A stretch of DNA of 64,000 nt from Capniomyces stellatus. Taxonomy: Eukaryota; Kickxellomycota; Harpellomycetes; Harpellales; Legeriomycetaceae. The first letter of the stretch is position 1. The number at the start of each line of letters is the position of its first letter. Of the stretch, positions 38,496 through 51,558 are shown piece by piece. The stretch is from the NCBI GenBank assembly GCA_001661515.1, contig LUVW01000009.1, positions 515,772-579,771 of the forward strand, given 5' to 3'. The notes beneath the pieces are model-generated. The model was not told the origin of the DNA. It did not search any database and saw only the letters and a list, made by a program, of their open reading frames with translations. The translations under genes and the position numbers were made by a program.

Positions 38496-39697
38496 ATCCC
38501 TTGAAAGTAGCTTTGAAGGCTATATGTACGTTTTTAGTGTTTTTTTTTTTCTTTTTTCGACGTGTACTTTTATTTTTTTATTAATGAAATTGACGTATGC
38601 TTTTATATACGACCTAGTGCCTACAAATTAACCAAGTGTAGCAATGTATGTAAGTAGTGTCTTTAGTGATGATAAGGAGGACTTATTATGTAGTAATATT
38701 TTTTTTAAAGAAAGAGTTTGGGTTGTATTTAAACCAAGATAACGCACATAAAGGCAAAACTAAATGGATCTTTACTTTTTCAAGAAATAAGAGCCAATTC
38801 GAAAAGCCCCATTATACACTTTTGAAGCCCAGCAGATTTATTTATAAATGCTACTTTGTTTAGCTGATTTTTTAAGTTTTACACCAGGAAGCTTGTTTAC
38901 TACACATATTTTACAGCATATCTATTAATAGACCAGCAAAAAAACGCTATATACTTTGAGTAAATAGAATGCACAAGTGCACCCTCGAAACCAAACTACA
39001 ATTATCATTACGCTAACGCTTTATGCCTCTGGCAATTAAACAATATGTTTTGATTGTTTGCTTATAAATGGTTCGTATGCTGCCTGAAGCTATTTTGAAG
39101 CATGTGATTATATACTTTATTCATGAGGGTGGGAGCCTACTTTTGGAATAAAAATTCTGGCACCAAGGTAATAATAAACAATAGGGTGTTATTTTTATAA
39201 CCTAAATTTACTGCACTGTTTGTTTATGCTTGACTATTTTGAATTTGCATTTGGTCTACATCAAATGGCAGTACCTTCCAACACACCATTGGCCTGTCTG
39301 GCCAAACACTGATATGTTATTGGTTTATGGTATCATTGGTTTAAATTGAATGTCAGGTTGGAGTGTTAGCTGAGGACTTCAGCCAAAAAAAAACTTGTTT
39401 GGTTGTGTAATTTGCATTCTCCAGACAAACAAGATCATTTGTTGTTGGTGCAACTTTAAATAAAGCCCGCTAAAATAACCAAAACAGTCGAGTCCCCCGA
39501 TTTTCGAGTTCAAAAGTTCGAGCCGAGTCAAATTAACCAAATAAAGACAGTATCAAGTAAATCAAATAAATCTCGAAATATAAGCTAAATAATAAATATG
39601 TACACTTGTTGCAGAGTGTGATTTGCCAAAATCCTTCAAAGCCAACTTGTAACTATGATTGTGGTGATGCTATCGGTAAACGAGGTAAACGAATGGT

Positions 39698-39792
39698 ATT
39701 ATTAATATTACTTTTACTATTACTGCTACTTTTACCATTACTACTACTTTTACTTTTACTTTTACTATTATTATTATTATTATTATTATTAC
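39698..39792. repeat. TTACTT/TTA microsatellite
   Basis: Imperfect CTTTTA and TTACTA hexamers grading into pure TTA trinucleotides, about 95 nt. Confidence 0.85.
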
Positions 39793-39888
39793 TCTGGAAC
39801 AAATGGAATTTACACAAGAAATCTATGCTTTGAACGATCTAATAAAAAAATTTCAACCTTTCTACGAGCCAAGCACATAGATGTTAGA

Positions 39889-39916
39889 ATGAGGAGGAGG
39901 AGGAGGAGGAGGAGAG
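39889..39916. repeat. GAG trinucleotide tract
   Basis: Eight or so AGG units just beyond the stop codon of the transcription-factor-domain gene, within its 3' UTR. Confidence 0.8.
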
Positions 39917-39930
39917 GGGGTATTCATGAC

Positions 39931-42201
39931 CTAGGTATTTTTACTATCGTTATCTACATCAGAGTCCAAGTATTCGTAGTTGTACAGGTTTGTATAACAT
40001 TTTTTTATACAGCAGGAGAATTTAAAGTAAGAGGCGTATTTAGGAACAGCCCAAGGGTTTGTATCGAGCGGAGTGATGCTGTAAACCTTCATCTCCTCCT
40101 CCAGTTCTGGAAAATTTGAGTTGGCATTATGGGCGGCGATTTTCATGTTCTGAATGCTGAGTATATGTTTTATATAGACCTTTGAGAACATGTAGTTGCT
40201 GGCAATATTTTTTAAAACTTCAAGGAGTAAATTTAACCCCTCAGAAATTCTCTCATGGTCCTTGTGGTCGGATAGAAAGTGGCCGTTCATTAACACCAAG
40301 AGACTGGGAAAAATCCAGGCCGATAACTGTGGACCTGATATTTGGTGAGGAAAGTTCTCCAACCCTTTTCTAATGAGCTCAACCTGGTCGATAGCAGCTT
40401 CTAAACTTTTAGTTTTGGCAGATTTTATTATTGCGTAGTGAAGAAATCGCCCTTTGCACCTGACCAAGTTTGATAGGTGCAGATGGACCTTGGCGCAGTT
40501 ATAGTACAGCAGCGTGTAAAAGTTGGTTTTTCTGTTGCTAGACTTTTGAAAGTCCTTTATGAAGTTTACGTGTTCTGCGCTAAATTTTTTATCAATTAAG
40601 ACGGTTGACTGCAAACTCAAATATACATGACCTCCAAACTCCTCAATTTTGTTTACATAGCTGTTAAATAGATTCATTTGCCTCTTTTCAAATTCAAACT
40701 TTACTTTTTTGTTGGGTATATTTTTATACTTATCCAACCATCGCCGATTTAGAAAGATTATTATCTCACCAAACAGCATAAAATAATGGCAAACCAAGCC
40801 AACCAGATCGATGGGGATCTCAACATTTATAGTATCTATGCTGTTTGCATCCGAGTCATTTGCTAGCAGATTCAAATACTTGACTTTGCTGCTGCAATCG
40901 CTTATATTGCCACCATACTTCCACTTAAAGTCGTTAGCAGGGTACTTGACGTACATGTCCAAAACGTCTATATGTGATATATTGCCCGTTATCATCATGT
41001 TTCCCCGATTGAAAATAAACAATGTCCACCACACGCGTCTATTTAATTCCTTTTCCTCTTCAGAAAGATGACTGATCGTCGTATTAGTACTCCTATCAAT
41101 TTTGTATAGCCCTGCTCTCTTTGCCGATCTATTTATATACACAAAAATCCACAAAAATTAAAGTCAGACAATAGCCATGCTCTAGCAACCCGGTATACGA
41201 CGTTTAAAAGCATTTAATGCTGTCGTTGTTGCCATACCAAACCACTACTAAGCTATAACTTACGATAGCGCCAAACCTATATCGCAATCAGCAACAACAA
41301 AGATTAATTAGTATAAAACTACAAAAGTTAGGTCCTATCAATCAGCTCATCAACCCTGTTGGGGGGGGGGGGTGGTTCTTTAAAATAATCATGTTACCAA
41401 GCCAAAAAAAAAGAAGGAAAAATAAAACTTACCACTATAAATAAGCACCGGGTTTCTATATGATGCCTTAGAGTAGTAATACGAAATAATCAAACATGAC
41501 CATATATAATACGTATCGGTACAGTATGGCGATTGTCTCAATAAAAACTCTGCTTTTTTAGCATACTGAGCTTCTCGGATGTCGGGACTGCTGTTGGTTA
41601 TAGCTGACAAGCTATTTAAGCCAAATGCTAGTAAGCTATACAGGAAGTAGTCCTTGAACTTTTTTTCTTTATACAGCTTTAAAGCTGTGGACATTCTTAG
41701 CGGTATCATTATTCCTGGAGTTGTCTGTAATAAATTCCAAACAATGTTTTCAAACTCTGTGTAGGTAGGAAGCGCAATGTTATCCGTGAACTCTTCTTCA
41801 AATTTATCCAGGTTGTTCAAGTTGAAGCTTTTGTTTCTGTACATTTCTATTAATGTTTTGCTGTCAATATTAGAAAGGAAGCTTTTATGCAACGTGATAG
41901 CCTTTCTGTGTTGGTTAGTTCTAATGTGAGACTCTAATGAAGCGTTAGTCCGTGTGTGTTCATCCAAGCTCAAGGTGCTTCTAATACCATCGATGGTCTT
42001 GCTCATAGTTGTGATTATGCTATTTATATCCTTTATTACATTTTTCCTAACCTTCTTGCTCGATGTCTTCTTTTCCACTACATAGGAAGAGTTTTTGCCT
42101 CCATTTGTTAAACGGGACCCACCCCCATTCGTAGTGTTTGATTCCTCCAACACCATTCTAACAGGCTCTATGTGTGTATGCGTGTTTTTGGTTTTTGTCA
42201 A
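39931..42201 (-). CDS. Fungal-specific transcription-factor-domain protein A, no zinc cluster seen
   Basis: Three exons: 42201-41433, 41276-41264 (13 nt), 41128-39931 (1,980 nt, 659 residues; the second Met at 42156 would give 644). The middle exon is required: without it the outer exons are out of phase. It supplies GLALS so that YSGLALSSAKRAGLYKIDR reproduces the YxGxAxRxAxxLGLHR signature of the Fungal_trans domain. This is followed by EEEKELNRRVWWTLFIFNR and a conserved PANDFKWKYGG segment. Family members are usually Zn2Cys6 transcription factors, but no CxxC...CxxC cluster precedes the domain; the N-terminus has only a basic KKTSSKKVRKNV stretch and a possible short coiled coil. The C-terminus carries FKFSCCIKKCYTNLY, shared with the paralogue at 47-50 kb, and stops soon after. 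A DNA-binding exon further upstream cannot be excluded. Confidence 0.8.
41264..41276 (-). other. 13-nt micro-exon of transcription-factor gene A
   Basis: GTTTGGCGCTATC on the coding strand, preceded by GATATAG and followed by GTAAGT. The flanking introns are 156 and 135 nt. Joined as G|GT TTG GCG CTA TC|A it restores the frame between exons 1 and 3. Confidence 0.85.
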
Positions 42202-45200
42202 TTGTGTACGTAGAAAAGGTGCCTTGGTAGCCTGTCAGTTTAATCGTTCAGGTTGTAAAGCATGCTATTTTAAGGTAGGGCTTCGTCTTGCAGATACAGC
42301 TTTTTTTTATTTGTCTGCGATTGTATTTGTGTTTACGATATAGGAAGTGCAGTCGTGTGGGCGTGAAAAATAAAACTAAACTTGTTACTATTGTTAAATT
42401 CTTAATGATAATTTATTTATATAATATGAAGCTGTAATGAGATATCAATTAAATTGACGAATTTGATTTTGATTTAAGAGTTCCAAGTGCTCCAGCTTAA
42501 AATTGGGCGATTTTACCGCTTTTTTATAAACTGTCAACATTAAAACTTCAAGTGCGCTTTTAAACCTTTCTCCAATTTCCGCTGTAATATTTTAAAATGT
42601 AGATTATAACGGAAAAAAAGGAAAGCTTGATATTTTTTTCTTCTCTCTCTTTCTTTCTATCCAGCTTCTCATAACTTAGAATTTACATCAAACCTCAAAA
42701 CAACCAAAAAAAAAAAATCTAAAATGCGCTTTTTATTATTATTGACAAGTATAAGGTGAATGTAGCTTTAAATTACCAACGTACTTTCTGGTAATACCAA
42801 TCTTTGATTTCGTCCAATTACAACCCAATTGAATCAGCTTTATTTCTCGAGCTGAATGGCAACAAAAAAATAAATAAAAAAACTCCAAATTGGGAACACG
42901 GCTTAACAGATACACGCCTTTAACAACATCATTTAATACTCTTTTCGTTTCAACTAAAAATCAAAAAAAAAAAATAGCTCAACACCAACTTATTTTGGAC
43001 ATTAGGTCAGATTTAAACTTTAGGCAATTATAAATTTTAATCCTTAAAAAGTAAACATGGAGGTGTGATTATAAAAATCAATGGCAACTGGTTTAGTTCA
43101 AGTTTTGTTTAGAGAGCCATTTTAAACTATATTTCACAATTTAACGTGAAGCACATAATTGGTTATAATTAAAGAACTCATGTTGTAAGTATATTGGTCA
43201 GCCCATTGAAATATTGCTTTTGCCATTATAAATATTCCTCCATTTGATTTGGTGTGGGGATTTTCCAATTTAATCAATTTGAATCATCAAAAGTCCTTGC
43301 CATTCTTCAAAGCACTTCAATGAAGGATCGTTTTACTAATAATAAAGCACATCGATAAATGTACCTTCAAGCATCAACAATATTATTGCCTCAATACTGC
43401 CCTGCTTCTAGTCAAATGGAGCTTCCTGTTTTACCAACTCAAATCATTTGGATAAGGTATTTGGATGTCTTATTGGTCATTTAAAGTGTATTAGAGTGAT
43501 ACTCTTGATTTTAACTGGTTTTCCAACAACCAAAGCAAGGAAATTTTTTAGAAAATTCGGTAACGCTATTATTTTACTATTTTATTTTAATTTTAATTTT
43601 TGCATTGGCTAGGTTCGGTAGCAAGATTACAGAATTAGTTGGAAGAAACTATAAAGTAAACTTGAACTCGTTTAACAAAGTATCTCTAGCATTAATACGC
43701 CGGCAAACTTTGAAAATAAGTATATTAATTAAATCGACAATTCTAATGGCAATACAAAAAAAAAAAGGCAAAGTTTGTGCCGGTTCCCTCTTTCATTGCA
43801 TTTCTGCTTTTACCCGCTTAACCCATGTGTAAGCAGTTCTTTATATCTTAGATACGCTGTGGCGTCTGTAGCAAAAGTGCGATAAAGTAAGAATACCATC
43901 AAACTTTTTGTCAATAGTCGTCACAAAGCGCAATACAGTCTATTGCAATAAATAAGGTGTCGTATTTATTGTTGAAATAAGGCACTAAAATCTGATCATC
44001 AAACTGTCCTTGGCTACAAATGTACTTGGCGATTCAATGTTGTATATAATCCATCAACACCTTACTCACTATTGCCCAATTTGGCCTAGTAACATCACTG
44101 AACTTGGTGGATAGGGCTTTATTTGGCGATTAGATTAAAATGAGTAGGCCAATATACTTAGTGACCTTGAACTGCAACTATTTTACTATAAAGGCATTTA
44201 GTGATTTTAAACACGCAGATTGATTTGTCACTCCTTGGTTGCACTCTGTGCTTATTGGCTTGCTTGAACTCCAAGTCATTTCATTTATCTCGGGAATGCT
44301 GCAAACAAGAAAATGTGCTATTAAATATCAGTCATCCATTCTTATACCATTGGGCGTGGGCTGTTTTCTGCAAGTAAGAGCATTATAGTCATATTATAAT
44401 CAATAAGAGGTGACTTATCCTACTAGTCACCGTTGAACGTGTGCAAAGTATAATTAGTGCGCCCTTTCAACAGATTTCTTTAACCAACACGGATCAATTT
44501 AGAAATGTAATTCTACTGGAATAAGAGATGTGAAAAATATCTCACAAACTGATTAGTTAATTTGGATTGAATGTTTGTAATGGTAAAATCTAATGATCAA
44601 CTCGAAAAAAAGAAAATAAAGTAGACAGATGTATGATGTGTGTTGCAAGTTGGGTCAGAGATGCTGGATGTTCTATTGGTCTTCCCAAAGTTATCCCAAG
44701 AGATTTTCCAACCCTTCGACAGGCCTACGAATAATGCATAGCAGTGGTTCTTTGAGAAATACCAATATTTGCATTTTTAATTTCAATATGCCACGTCACT
44801 AGTATATTTGGTAGTATTTTTGAATCAAGGTTTTCGTTAACTTTTGAAAAAAAAAGATAGAAAAAAAGAAACAAAAAGAAGGCGACTAAACGTAGCTCCA
44901 CTAACTCTTAATTGGTTGTCAAGTCCACACGAAATAAAAGGCAAGTTTTCAACATAAAAATGTCGTCAATAAGCAGCATATTTTGTAAATGGTCGGGTTT
45001 TGTTACTTTGCTCTAAAGAATCAAATCGATCGATTAACAAAATGTGCCTTCAACTTGGTAGTATGTGGTTTCGATTGTTCAACAGTAAAGCAAAACAAAA
45101 ACCGTGTATCATAAAAATACATCTTTAGCTGATAGGCTGCGTTGGTTCAACTTGTAAATGTGAAAATTTACCTTAGAGTTGTGAAATACAAAGGAGTTCT

Positions 45201-47080
45201 TGAACGTGGTCATTCCATTTTTGTAACTCATTTAACAACCTTAACAAAACATCAAGATAAAGGTTGGTTTCTACTTTTTTTTCTTTTAAATAGAACGAGA
45301 CAATTGGTCAAAATAAACTAACCCTGAATAGAGGTGAAGTTAATTTGAGTGAATAATATACATATATTTATATCTCGAAAAGCTTGATTAATAGAGATGG
45401 CCAAGTTCAGCCGATTAATATCCCCAAACAGCTGCCAGTTTCTTAAGTCAACCAATCTATGGATATTCTAATTTACTTGTTTGCTATTCAGCACACTTTT
45501 ACATGTGAATCATTTAACTCAAACACGGGTTTTTTTTTTTTTTTTTTTTTTGTAATTTTCATTATTTGTAAGTTGAGTTTTTTTTTTTCCATTTCTTTTT
45601 TTTTTAATTGGAATCTCGCGAGTTATTTTTTTCAGCTTTTTCAACACTCAAGTTCGTCAGTTATTTATTGTAACTGCAAGATGAGCGTTTTTTATTTATT
45701 TGAATTGAGCTTTTTTTTGTTATCGCCAATTACTAATAAAATCTCAAAAACATGACAAAACCAATTAGACTCACTCTTTAACAACTGGTTTATGAAAGAG
45801 TCTAAAGTACCTTTTATTATATAATCCTGGGCAAGAGCAGAATAATGTGTCACCTAGTTTTATCTTTTCTAATAGTAAAAAGTTCTTGGACTGAATCACA
45901 CAAATATAACTTGCGCGGATACTCTCAATGTCTTAAAGGTTCAAATACCCTCAATGTCTCAAAATCTCAAATGCTCTGAAGCTCAATATCTCAAATACTT
46001 TGGTGCTCAAAAGCTCAGAAAAATAGGAGGGCGAGTTAGTGTCTTTGGAAAAGTTCGGTAACTAACACAGAGGTCAAAAGCTTTAATTGATAAGAGCCCT
46101 TTACTCTTCTTTTTTTTCATTACTATTTTTATTAATCAATAAATTAATTGATTTTTTTTTGAATAGTATCGAGTTTATAACTCAATCTTAAGTTGATCCG
46201 TGGCATTCAGAATAAAGGGAGGTTATTCAGAAGCTTTTCTTCCAAATTTCCAAGACAACTAGCCCTCTTTATGTGGAAGAGTAGACAATGCTTTGTAGCT
46301 TTAGTTGTGAAAAGGTCCATTTGGCTTATCGGTGGCCGATATTCCGATTCAACTAAATCATGGCCAATTAATCAACGCGAATAGTTACATAATATCTAAC
46401 ACACGAACACGGGTTAAACTTTGTGAACAAGACGGATGATTGATTCAAACGTTTAACGTTTTGGTGAATTTGTAATTTCCCAGTGTCATTTTATTGCTAT
46501 TGTTTGAGCAAATAAGTTTGGCACCAGAAATTCACAGAGTGGAAGCACAGAACCCTATTTTATCAGAAATAATCCATATAATTTAGGCAGGCTAGGTCTC
46601 CCCCCCCCCAAGTTTGAAAACAATGTCAACTATCAAAGAAAAGTACGGACAGATCACCCTATTGTCATTGGTTACGTGCAACTTAAAGCACCCGGAATCC
46701 TTGAAGTCAGCGTAGGAGGCAAAACGGGAATGATGGTTGCGTACCCAAGAGACAGAGCAAAGGATAATCTGTGATGGTTGGGGATAAGTGTTAAAACAAA
46801 ACTGTATTCAACCAACACGCATAAAAAGAAAACAAAAGATAAATTATTTGTACAAAATAAAAGCTTCAACGACACCAAAACCAAACGCATATAGGTGCAT
46901 AAACAACATACGGAATCAAGAAGCCATTAGTAAGCATAGAAAATGTGCTTGATAGTTTTTATGGTTTTATTTTTTTTAGTGCTTGAAACTGAACGTCAAC
47001 ATGCCAAAACAGTGCTTGTGCTGAGAACTATACCGCGAGTGGTTTAGAGTAGGAGCAAATTGATTGGTGGTAGTGAATAA
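42202..47080. other. 4.9-kb spacer between the two transcription-factor genes
   Basis: AT-rich, with long T runs near 45530-45610. A loosely repeated CTCAATGTCTCAAATA motif lies at about 45920-46020. No zinc-cluster pattern, tRNA or other gene is recognised on either strand. The frame at 43605-43832 (+) lacks any family feature. Confidence 0.45.
45920..46020. repeat. Loose repeats of CTCAATGTCTCAAATAC
   Basis: Five or six degenerate copies of a CTCAAAT/CTCAATGT motif spaced irregularly over about 100 nt. They share the CTCAAT word with the exact heptamer array in the intron at 49064-49112. Confidence 0.55.
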
Positions 47081-49965
47081 TTAGGATCGAAACTGTTGTT
47101 GTGAGTGCGGGTGAGGGTGCGGGTGTGGCTGTGGCTGTGGCTGTGACTGTGACTGTGACTGTCGTTGTAGCTGTGGCTGTGGCTGTGGCTGCTGTCGAAA
47201 TTGAGCTTGTAGCTGCGGTGTTGGTGCTGGAGAGTTGAGTTTTAATGAGTGTGTGTATGATGTTGCAGTATTAAACTGGGGCCGTGAGTGCAATGGAAGT
47301 TTGAACTTTTGCGAAAACAAAGCAGGCATTGGTGCATCAGAGTTTTGGGGGTTTATGTTTCCGTTGGTGGCTAATGAAAAGTTGGGGGAGCGTATAGGTA
47401 AATTGGGACTGGACATGGTGGGGTTGTTTGAATTGTAAGAGTTTGGGTTTAGTTCGAATGGTCTTTGAAGTTCATGTGTTCCGTAACTGTAGTTATACTC
47501 AATTTTGGTTTCAATCAGGTTATTCAGCTCAAAATTAATGTTGTTTATTTCGGAATAAAAGCTGTTGGATGAAGATGAGGCTGTGTTTTGATTACTAAGG
47601 GCGTGGGTATCAAGTAAGGTGGGAGTTGTGCCGGAAACTGTTGAGCTTAAAACAGAAGGCTCGTTACGCGTGTATGCGTTTTGGTTTAAAGCGTAGTTGA
47701 GGTTGTATTGGGGCTCAAGAGTTAATAAATTGGAGCTATGTTGGAAAGGATTGAGGTCGATGGATGTGTGATTTGGGTTGAGCAAAGTCCCAGTCAGCGA
47801 GGCGATGTCAACAAATTCGTGTTTTGTATTAGACACGCTTACATTGTTGTCTAGGTAGTCATGTACATACAGGTTGGTGTAGCAGTCCTTTAAACAGCAC
47901 GAGAACTTGAAGTGGGAAGAGTACTTGGGAACAATCCAGGGATTTAGATCCAACTTTGTTATCCCATAAATCTTCATTTGCTCCATTAGTTTTTTATTCT
48001 TTCTGTTGAAGTTGTGTGCAGAAACTTTCATGTTTTTTAGGGTGATCAAGTAGTTTAGATAGATGTTTGAAAACTCGTACTCTTCAGACATCAGCTTTAG
48101 AGCATCCATTAGCGTATTATAGCTAAGCTGAATCTGGGCGTAGTCTGGGTGGTCGGTTAGAAACTGCGCGTTGATTAGAATCACCAAGCTGGGGAATACC
48201 CATGCAGAAACTTGCGGCCCGAGCAGTTTCTTGGGGATATTCAATAGTCCCTTTGATATAAGGTTGGCTTGGTCAATTGAAGCATCAATGCACTTCAACT
48301 TTGCTGCTCTTATCATATTAGGCGGAATAGGCCGGCCTTTGCTTCTGACAATGTTGGACTGGTGAAGGTATGTAGTGACTGCATTGTGGTACAGATACAA
48401 GAAAAAAAGCTTGGTTGATTTTGACACACTTATCAGCTCCTTTAAAATCAAATACTCTTTATGACTGTCGTTTACACTAGCGCTTGTATCTGTTAGGTCA
48501 ACCATATAAATGTCGTTTCGTAACTCATCCATTTTTTTGACAAATACGTCAAACCTCTTCAACTGCCTTTCGTCAAAGCTCTGCAGCTTTTTGGGGTCTT
48601 GTGTTAGCTTGAAATTGTCTAGCCAACGAACATTCAAAAATGCAAGAATCTCGTCAAAATATTTCCCAAACCGGCACACAATATTAAACCCATCAATGGG
48701 TAATTCAACATCCAAACCCCCCCGGCCTTCCAAGCATACACTGTTTGCTATTTTGTTCAGCGTTTTTATGTTTTGGCAACACCCCTCAGCGTCACCGCCG
48801 AATTTCCATATAAAATCATTGCTCGGGTAGTTGACTTTTATGTCCATCTGCTCAATCTGCGATAGCTTTCCTGATATCATAATGTGCGTCCGATTCGATA
48901 TAAAAGCTGCCCAGAATACTCGTCTCCTAAACTCCTTTTCACTCTCTGACAAATCGTGATTATATCTTCGATTGTCACTATCAACCAAATTAAACTTGTG
49001 GTTTCTTATTGTCCTAAATTAAATACCCATACATATCATCATTTGTTAATTTACTTGCAAGTGCTCAATACTCAATACTCAATACTCAATACTCAATACT
49101 CAATACTCAATATATACCATATATGCCATATATTATTCGCAACCAAGTCTTTGAGGTTAAATTTGCAATGCTACACTTACGAAATGGCCAGTCCTATTTT
49201 ACATTATTCAAACCAATATTGTTAGCAAACTATTACAACACATCAACTGCTTTCTACCAATTATCATTTTCTTACAAGTATTATTTTTATATTCAGTCCC
49301 TTACCTAAATACTCAAACACCAATACATGTAGGGATATACTCCATTGATACGCTGATAACAATACGCACGACCAAATAAAGTACGCGTCTGATGAAACTA
49401 TATTCAGCTTTAAAATCTTTTCGGCCTTTTGTGCATAGTCCACTCTCTTTAGGCTCGATTTTTTATCTTTTTGAAGTGAGCAAAACAAACTTGCATTAGC
49501 TAGAATTGAGTATAAAAAAAGCTTTGGAAGGCTTTTCTGCCTATATTTTTTCAGAATTTCTGGAATTCTAATTGGACCCATAACAATCGGCAGTCTATGT
49601 GTCAGGTTCCACAGCAATGTTTCAAACTCATCGTAGCTAGGCAGTTCATCCATATCCACTTCCTTAAAATCCTCGTTTATATCACCTGAAAGTGTTTTTC
49701 CAGGCTTAGCGTTGGTCGCTGAACCATTGCCATGCATACTTTTGCTCTCGGTGCCGGTCTGTTTAGTGTTTGTAACCAATTTCCGCCTTTTGTTTTTAAC
49801 TATAAAATCATCCCCTATACCCAAATTCTTTTTAATCTTATTCACACTTTTGTTTATTACCACTATTCTCTCGTCTATTTTCTTTATTGCACTCTTCCTA
49901 TCTTTTCCACGTCGCTTTCCACTCTCCATCCCATTTTCCTTATTTCCTTCAGTATTACTAGACAT
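47081..49965 (-). CDS. Fungal-specific transcription-factor-domain protein B, no zinc cluster seen
   Basis: Three exons: 49965-49305, 49193-49181 (13 nt), 49013-47081 (2,607 nt, 868 residues). The micro-exon restores phase exactly as in the paralogue, giving YLGLAISTIRNHKFNLVD, then SESEKEFRRRVFWAAFISNR and PSNDFIWKFGGD of the Fungal_trans domain. The N-terminal 60 residues are basic (GKRRGKDRKSAIKKID) and may form a short coiled coil, which in this family normally follows a Zn2Cys6 cluster; the cluster itself is absent. HFKFSCCLKDCYTNLYVHDY matches protein A. Beyond that, B has an extra 250-residue low-complexity tail rich in Asn, Ser, Pro and Gln, ending in Gln-Pro and His-Pro dipeptide runs, a possible activation region. 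Likely nuclear; DNA targets unknown. Divergence from A is considerable, so the duplication is not recent. Confidence 0.82.
47110..47200 (-). repeat. Gln-Pro/His-Pro/Gln-Ser coding hexamers
   Basis: Tandem hexamers (plus strand GTGGCT, GTGACT, GTGCGG types) at the 3' end of gene B code alternating Gln-Pro, Gln-Ser and His-Pro dipeptides. Expansion of a hexamer in frame explains the tail. Confidence 0.8.
49064..49112. repeat. Seven exact copies of CTCAATA within an intron
   Basis: 49 nt of perfect heptamer array inside the 167-nt intron (49014-49180) between the micro-exon and exon 3 of transcription-factor gene B. Confidence 0.95.
49181..49193 (-). other. 13-nt micro-exon of transcription-factor gene B
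   Basis: GACTGGCCATTTC on the coding strand, preceded by AAAATAG and followed by GTAAGT. The flanking introns are 111 and 167 nt. It is joined as G|GA CTG GCC ATT TC|G. Same length, phase and encoded motif (G-L-A-L/I-S) as in gene A. Confidence 0.87.
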
Positions 49966-51558
49966 TTTAATTATTCTCTTTGTTTATATTCATTCCTCCT
50001 AGTATATTTTCCGTGCTATTCTAGCTTTTATCTGCCAACTTTAATACACCCTATCCCTGCTAATTCAATTGCTAGTAAAGTGTATATATCTGTATCCAGT
50101 TTAGACAAATTAATATATATATATATTGCTTGTCTCTTCTTGCCACCAGCTCAACTTTCGTTCTTTTTAAAAATATAAATAAATCCAAGCCCTGAATTTA
50201 TAGTATCAACTTTGACTACACGTTTTGGGTGCTTTATTCTAGTATATGTCGATTGTGATTGTTTCGTCGGCAGATCCTCGTTCAAAGAATATCTTATTCG
50301 CTATCTACTCTCGTATTGCCGGTCTAGATTCGGTTACTCCGTTTAACGTAGCTTATAACTTTTGTGCTCGAATACAAGTATAGAGTTTATACACTGCGTT
50401 TGGATTCCAATCTCGAATTAAAACCGTTTTATTTTTATTTTACTTATTTTTTGTTCTTTTTCTTCTTTCTTTGCTAACAAAAAAAAACACAATTGTGATT
50501 TGCTATTAGTTTAAATACCAGCTTTAGGATTTGGCGATATAGCCTCAAACCAACTTGTTTCTTTATTGTGCTTTTATCAGGTTATTTTGGAATTGCTGAA
50601 TCGATTACATTAAAATAATATCAGTGGTAATACACATATATTGGCTGCAGCTCATTTTTATTTCTTTCTACAGCTACAACTATTACGTAAAACTAAAATG
50701 TTTGGGTTAACTCCAGTAAGATAGTTCCACCTTTTGTTGAGGAATTTGGTTTATTTTTAATTTTAAGATATCCCAACCTAAAATAAACTGAGTTATTAAT
50801 TATAACTGTAATTTAAATTTCCAAATAAATCCATTGGCCATCGTTATCTTGTTAGCATAAACACTTGGAACCTCAACAATTAAAGAAATACTTTGCTATT
50901 TCTTCGTTCACTCGTTTGTAATTCTGCTCTTTTTAATTTAATTTAACTTAATTTTGTTTTTTGTAGCCTGGTTAAATAAAATAGAACATAATGGTGACTT
51001 TTTCAGAGTTTCAACAAACGTCTGAGGATTTGTTGATGACGCTTTACTTTATGTTTACTCGACACGGCGTACATTTCACTTTAAACGTACTTACTAAACC
51101 CAGTTTTTTATATTCAAGTTACCTTCGGCTACAGCACAGTTGAGCATAGGTCGATTTGTCTGTACACCGATAACCAGGGAACAATCAATATATTTAAAAA
51201 AGTGAGCTAACGTGGCGACACTAACATTATATATATATATATTATTTTTTTTTGCAGTTTGATAAAACAATTGTGAAAGCTTAGTTCTCACCAAGACAAA
51301 GAGCATTGGGTCCGACTGGTCCTGGGATCTTGAATTTTAACAGTCTATTGAAATATACTTTTAACACTTTTTATTTGACGTAAATGGTTTAGTAAACAAA
51401 AAGAAGAGATTATCAAGAGTTTAAATGACAAGTATAGTATCGATACGTTAAAGAGAAAGTTATGTGTGTGTAAGCTCTTTTTTTTTCTTGTTTTTTTTTT
51501 TTTGAAAAAAGTTTATTAGTTTAAAAAATATCAAGTATTTAAGAAGTAAATAGCAGGC
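49966..51558. other. Spacer between MRM2 and transcription-factor gene B
   Basis: AT-rich 5' flank of gene B and 3' flank of MRM2. I searched the first few hundred bases upstream of gene B for a zinc-cluster exon (Cys-rich, CxxC pairs) and saw none. No other coding signal. Confidence 0.5.

Follow-up and report, generated by a model that had tools for sequence, protein, structure and literature searches.

The window, meaning the whole 64,000-nucleotide stretch of DNA that was analysed, possesses a pair of related genes on contig C59 of a genome of 24.5 Mb in 59 contigs, here named the left and the right gene (Table 1). In both genes the first exon stops in phase 1 and the whole codons of exon 3 begin after its first base, so that the frame can be restored only by an insert whose length is 1 modulo 3. 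Such an insert is present in each as a 13-nt segment on the minus strand (TAG-GTTTGGCGCTATC-GTAAGT at 41276..41264 in the left gene and TAG-GACTGGCCATTTC-GTAAGT at 49193..49181 in the right). With the 13 nt included, the proteins read IYS-GLALS-SAK (left) and EYL-GLAIS-TIR (right) across the junctions. The original prediction had described this segment as repairing the frame in both genes, between introns whose sizes differ from one gene to the other, and its positions, phases, residues and flanking intron sizes were confirmed.

Table 1. Features of the two genes and their predicted splice models (positions in the window)
Feature	Position	Strand	Details
Left gene	39931-42156	-	From first ATG of open frame
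Left gene exon 1	41433..42156	-	Start is first ATG of open frame (putative); ends in phase 1
Left gene intron 1	41277..41432	-	156 nt, GTAAGT..TAG
Left gene micro-exon	41264..41276	-	13 nt, GTTTGGCGCTATC; gives GLALS with neighbouring bases
Left gene intron 2	41129..41263	-	135 nt, GTAAGT..TAG
Left gene exon 3	39931..41128	-	Runs to stop codon
Right gene	47081-49965	-	From first ATG of open frame
Right gene exon 1	49305..49965	-	Start is first ATG of open frame (putative); ends in phase 1
Right gene intron 1	49194..49304	-	111 nt, GTAAGG..TAG
Right gene micro-exon	49181..49193	-	13 nt, GACTGGCCATTTC; gives GLAIS with neighbouring bases
Right gene intron 2	49014..49180	-	167 nt, GTAAGT..TAG
Right gene exon 3	47081..49013	-	Runs to stop codon; long low-complexity C-terminal tail, absent from left gene

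The C-terminal tail of the right gene ends in simple repeats rich in Gln, Pro, Ser and His (47081-47900), which the left gene does not have. The approximately 4.8 kb between the two genes (42235-47080) contains no open frame of more than 105 codons in a list of frames of at least 80 codons, and an Rfam scan of positions 39500-51000 at gathering thresholds gave no match.

Each window protein has one match to the Fungal_trans domain (PF04082), with 55.7 bits for the right and 43.8 bits for the left against a cut-off of 23. A Zn2Cys6 cluster (PF00172) was detected in neither protein, nor at the window genes in a six-frame search of the genome. The possibility of an upstream exon carrying the zinc cluster was discarded, as no full motif is present in the upstream DNA, the sole hit being a short C..CR. 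The two genes had been put forward as transcription factors; the Fungal_trans domain agrees with this, while the lack of a detectable Zn2Cys6 cluster in either protein means that the designation DNA-binding transcription factor is not justified by sequence alone. A sequence search of solved structures gave no match at E<=1. The PF04082 and PF00172 matches, together with gene content, suggest a fungal origin for the DNA.

Family and protein searches of the genome identified 18 relatives with a readable site, of which seven possess the micro-exon, three have the downstream intron only and eight are uninterrupted. The seven are the window pair, L018 (contig C45), L019 (C33), L023 and L046 (both C22) and L044 (C7). 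The proposed search of paralogues for the same micro-exon thus added five genes on four other contigs. These seven paralogues on five contigs have in common the 13-nt length, phases 1 and 2 and the position in the domain, which supports the claim that the micro-exon is older than the duplication and has been kept. If the term micro-exon is reserved for internal exons of no more than about 30 nt that are flanked on both sides by GT..AG introns, all seven two-intron genes have one, of 13 nt in every case. From first ATG to stop, the models of the seven require no introns beyond the two that flank the micro-exon, their 5′ ends being putative. Including the codons completed by neighbouring bases, the encoded residues are GLAIS (right), GLALS (left), VAGVR (L018), GAGVR (L019), ELAYS (L023), EIAIK (L046) and ELGMS (L044).

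The downstream intron alone, at the matching column and phase, is found in L020, L021 and L025, all of contig C1. The uninterrupted genes are three near-identical copies on C23 together with L015, L016, L017, L022 and L045. Outside the 18 are L050, which is decayed with a broken frame and an unrecognisable site, L024, which has a zinc cluster and no Fungal_trans match, and three further relatives that adjoin withheld sequence. L050 is a decayed relative of L023 at a distance of a few kilobases, with the frame broken in its exon-3 part and no exon 1 recognised. On C23, L013 and L014 comprise one gene in three copies, with identities of about 99.7-99.96% across 2.6-2.8 kb. Two of the copies follow each other head to tail and share an open frame of at least 1984 codons, in which there are two Fungal_trans domains and a single zinc-cluster motif; since L013 contains one N, this arrangement may be an assembly artefact. 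Among the seven micro-exon genes only L019 matches PF00172 (32.1 bits), with no match in L018, L023, L044 and L046, nor in the uninterrupted L045. Scattered cysteines resembling a decayed zinc cluster occur in the N-termini of L018, L023 and L044. L023 (21.8 bits) and L045 (17.5 bits) are below the PF04082 cut-off, and their membership therefore rests on similarity to other family members. The family comparison is one of paralogues within a single genome: a protein database search with the right protein gave no match at E<=1e-5 among the 7994 best candidates scored, and one with an alignment of six members gave none at E<=1e-8 among 5697 candidates.

All 14 introns of the seven micro-exon genes have GT..AG ends, and those flanking the micro-exon are 111-229 nt in length. 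The donor 3′ of the micro-exon starts with GTAA in all seven genes, while one of the intron-1 donors is GTTAGT. Acceptors are TAG in 12 introns and CAG in two. The final 80 nt include a branch-like YTRAY motif in 11 introns and lack it in the other three. Aligned-base identity of the flanking introns in three paralogue pairs, all of them old paralogues, was 0.47-0.57 against shuffle means of 0.45-0.47, and never exceeded the best of 20 shuffles. Under intron definition, the length of an exon is of little consequence. Introns of 111-229 nt with GT..AG ends would suit such a mode of recognition.

The fit of the 13-nt segment to the family was scored with a profile of nine relatives from the same genome which lack the micro-exon. 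The rows include L045, and those of L020, L021 and L025 are one-intron splice models built in the analysis. As the nine align gap-free at the site, the profile is biased to inserts near 13 nt, and the ranking tests the family fit of the segment and not the occurrence of splicing. Candidates were enumerated gene by gene. They comprised every stop-free, frame-restoring AG..GT insert of 1-90 nt (right 13, left 3, L018 8, L019 6, L023 16, L044 8, L046 8) and direct in-frame GT..AG junctions, for which donors were taken from 120 nt ahead of the end of exon 1 onwards and acceptors to at most 120 nt beyond the start of exon 3 (right 72, left 43, L018 62, L019 63, L023 51, L044 13, L046 27). The 13-nt model ranked top among the inserts and above every direct junction in all seven genes, its smallest lead being 3.6 bits in L019, over another 13-nt insert. 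When the DNA between the large exons was dinucleotide-shuffled 300 times, the observed score was reached by none in the right gene, 1 in the left, 15 in L018, 4 in L019, none in L023, 5 in L044 and 5 in L046.

Pfam controls were run on shorter pieces of the window proteins. Without the five residues, the Fungal_trans match of the right gene fell from 59.7 to 44.5 bits (a loss of 15.2) and that of the left from 47.8 to 30.7 bits (a loss of 17.1), and the skipping products of both genes had no Fungal_trans match. The original prediction had the micro-exon completing a family signature, YxGxA; the Pfam controls support this, while that exact spelling is found only in the two window genes out of the seven.

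The segment is probably a genuine 13-nt coding exon internal to each window gene, freed of its introns by splicing and passed on in the manner set out here. The 13 nt completes one codon at each end and supplies three whole codons between, in a conserved part of the Fungal_trans domain, so that normal expression would need it in every mRNA. By intron definition, the two flanking introns would be recognised and spliced out separately, each as a unit, which would allow the exon to be as short as 13 nt. The sequence itself, its phases, its recurrence in seven genes and the occurrence of the same residues in uninterrupted relatives, of which one nests in a clade of micro-exon genes, are directly observed; we infer from these that splicing occurs and that inclusion is constitutive. 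Counted against this explanation are the 15 shuffles of L018 and the 4-5 each of L019, L044 and L046, the close runner-up in L019 and the introns that lack YTRAY.

The 13 nt could alternatively be absent from the mRNA, with the frame restored by another junction or by a stwintron (an intron nested in an intron), as in-frame direct junctions, between 13 and 72 of them, are present in all seven genes. Every one of these scores below the 13-nt model, and the uninterrupted relatives code for the residues without a gap, which argues against the segment being outside the mRNA and makes this reading extremely improbable. The stwintron form was rejected, since removal of the 13 nt shifts the frame in all seven genes and the direct junctions score lower. 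Sequencing error was also dismissed as the source of the arrangement, which is identical in seven genes.

In a tree of 16 rows, in which one of the three near-identical C23 copies stands for all, the uninterrupted L045 nests in a clade of five micro-exon genes with support of 98/98 for the six rows and 99/97 for the inner fork. The nesting is also present (100/99 and 99/98) in a second tree of 11 genes, from which L015, L020, L021, L022 and L025 were left out as long-branched, short or outside, and in which masking of the micro-exon residues was confined to the seven rows that have the micro-exon. By AU tests, which were selected after the first tree was known, both a tree holding the five micro-exon genes apart from L045 (p=0.003) and a single clade of all seven micro-exon genes (p=0.0001) were rejected. 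Given its nested position, L045 has very probably lost the two introns while the 13 nt stayed in place, as would be seen with a copied-back spliced mRNA. It is in this sense an evolutionary stand-in for a cDNA, and not a cDNA. The window pair forms a clade with support of 100/99 in the 16-gene tree and groups with the uninterrupted L016 (91/92 in the 16-gene tree, 88/90 in the 11-gene tree).

From these trees and from the intron positions we infer in which order the introns were gained and how they were lost, the root being placed by midpoint only. Early in the family, the apparently older phase-2 intron would have been present at the site, and a second intron would then have entered 13 nt upstream in phase 1, forming the micro-exon. 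Support for this comes from L020, L021 and L025, which carry intron 2 alone at the same column and phase; the split placing these three outside is weakly supported (79/68 in the 16-gene tree). The micro-exon would have been inherited through several duplications, its length held because a change breaks the frame, and some members would later have lost both introns together, probably through recombination with copied-back spliced mRNA.

Since the seven do not form a single clade, the history must include either joint loss on more than one occasion or a second entry of intron 1 at the very same nucleotide, and the several joint losses that a single gain requires were counted against the explanation preferred here. 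Two gains, one in the ancestor of the window pair and one in the ancestor of the other five, would agree with the AU result, and of the at least three changes of the two-intron state which the tree needs, two gains and one loss would suffice. This requires two insertions at one nucleotide and in one phase, however, and should intron 2 be ancestral, L013, L016, L017 and L045 must have lost it anyway, so that joint loss adds no event. The midpoint root was also weighed against the double gain, which we consider unlikely. It disputes only the history, the micro-exon being real in either case, and its probability overlaps with that of the preferred explanation. Joint intron losses are preferred over a second gain because the presence of intron 2 in three genes outside the group makes its losses necessary in any event.

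The original prediction also proposed that skipping would truncate the protein and that the micro-exon is an on/off switch. The former holds by computation: in each of the seven genes a skipped transcript would run into a stop within 2-28 codons, with the loss of 648 of 868 aa in the right gene and 403 of 644 aa in the left. Retention of intron 1 is computed to give a stop within 1-15 codons, and that of intron 2 a stop after 5 codons, provided by the TAA within the GTAA donor, which is in frame. Stops on skipping or retention can explain the absence of length drift, and are not a demonstration of control. In a regulated switch, condition-dependent skipping would lead to an early stop and to degradation of the mRNA or a protein stub, turning the gene off by splicing. 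The computed truncations would be in keeping with this, and a precedent exists in the glucose-dependent 20-nt micro-exon described for the PF04082 gene Xlr2 of Trichoderma virens (PMC11121469). However, truncation on skipping is automatic for any exon whose length is not divisible by three. Also counted against the switch were the GTAA start of all seven donors after the micro-exon, the lack of any intron at the site in eight of the 18 readable relatives and introns no closer than shuffles in the three paralogue pairs, the last being a weak point as the paralogues are old. A switch is therefore improbable and is unsupported here, the best reading being that of an ordinary, required coding exon. 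Quite improbable, too, is that the micro-exon acts as a common splicing control point, at which lower inclusion would silence the whole subfamily, that is, Fungal_trans proteins of which most have no detectable DNA-binding cluster, through frame shift and mRNA decay.

Conserved micro-exons required by the protein are already known as a class, which this set would join. The Xlr2 micro-exon shares with the window genes a length not divisible by three, its presence in a PF04082 fungal gene and its conservation among relatives (PMC11121469). It is described there as lying within the Zn2Cys6 cluster and as conserved among orthologues of one gene, with RNA evidence for its glucose-dependent use, whereas the present exon lies in Fungal_trans, is shared by seven paralogues and is predicted from sequence. 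Plant micro-exons of fixed size and phase, for example the 9-nt AP2 exon, are a closer likeness than Xlr2. These are also constant in length, phase and position within a gene family and form part of a conserved motif, and about half are reported as not divisible by three, their omission breaking gene models (PMC8831610). They differ in belonging to other families and in being documented by RNA-seq across species (PMC8831610), as opposed to one fungal genome here. Codon-sized micro-exons also occur in a fungal gene family in the NACHT genes of Tuber melanosporum, where they are described as alternatively spliced and diversifying (PMC4986451), in contrast to the single fixed 13-nt exon of this family, the skipping of which breaks the frame. 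The 4-nt micro-exon of MPC1, reported to be constitutively included, is likewise of a length not divisible by three and differs in being described, with minigene evidence, for a single metazoan gene with no paralogue series (PMC9929638). Under the terms searched in the open-access literature, no published micro-exon of such a kind in the Fungal_trans domain was found.

The family offers a fungal micro-exon of fixed length and phase comparable to those of plant families and, with relatives having both, one or neither of the introns in one genome, the birth and loss of a micro-exon may be traced in one place. Gene prediction that misses the 13-nt exon would leave seven genes truncated or frame-shifted.
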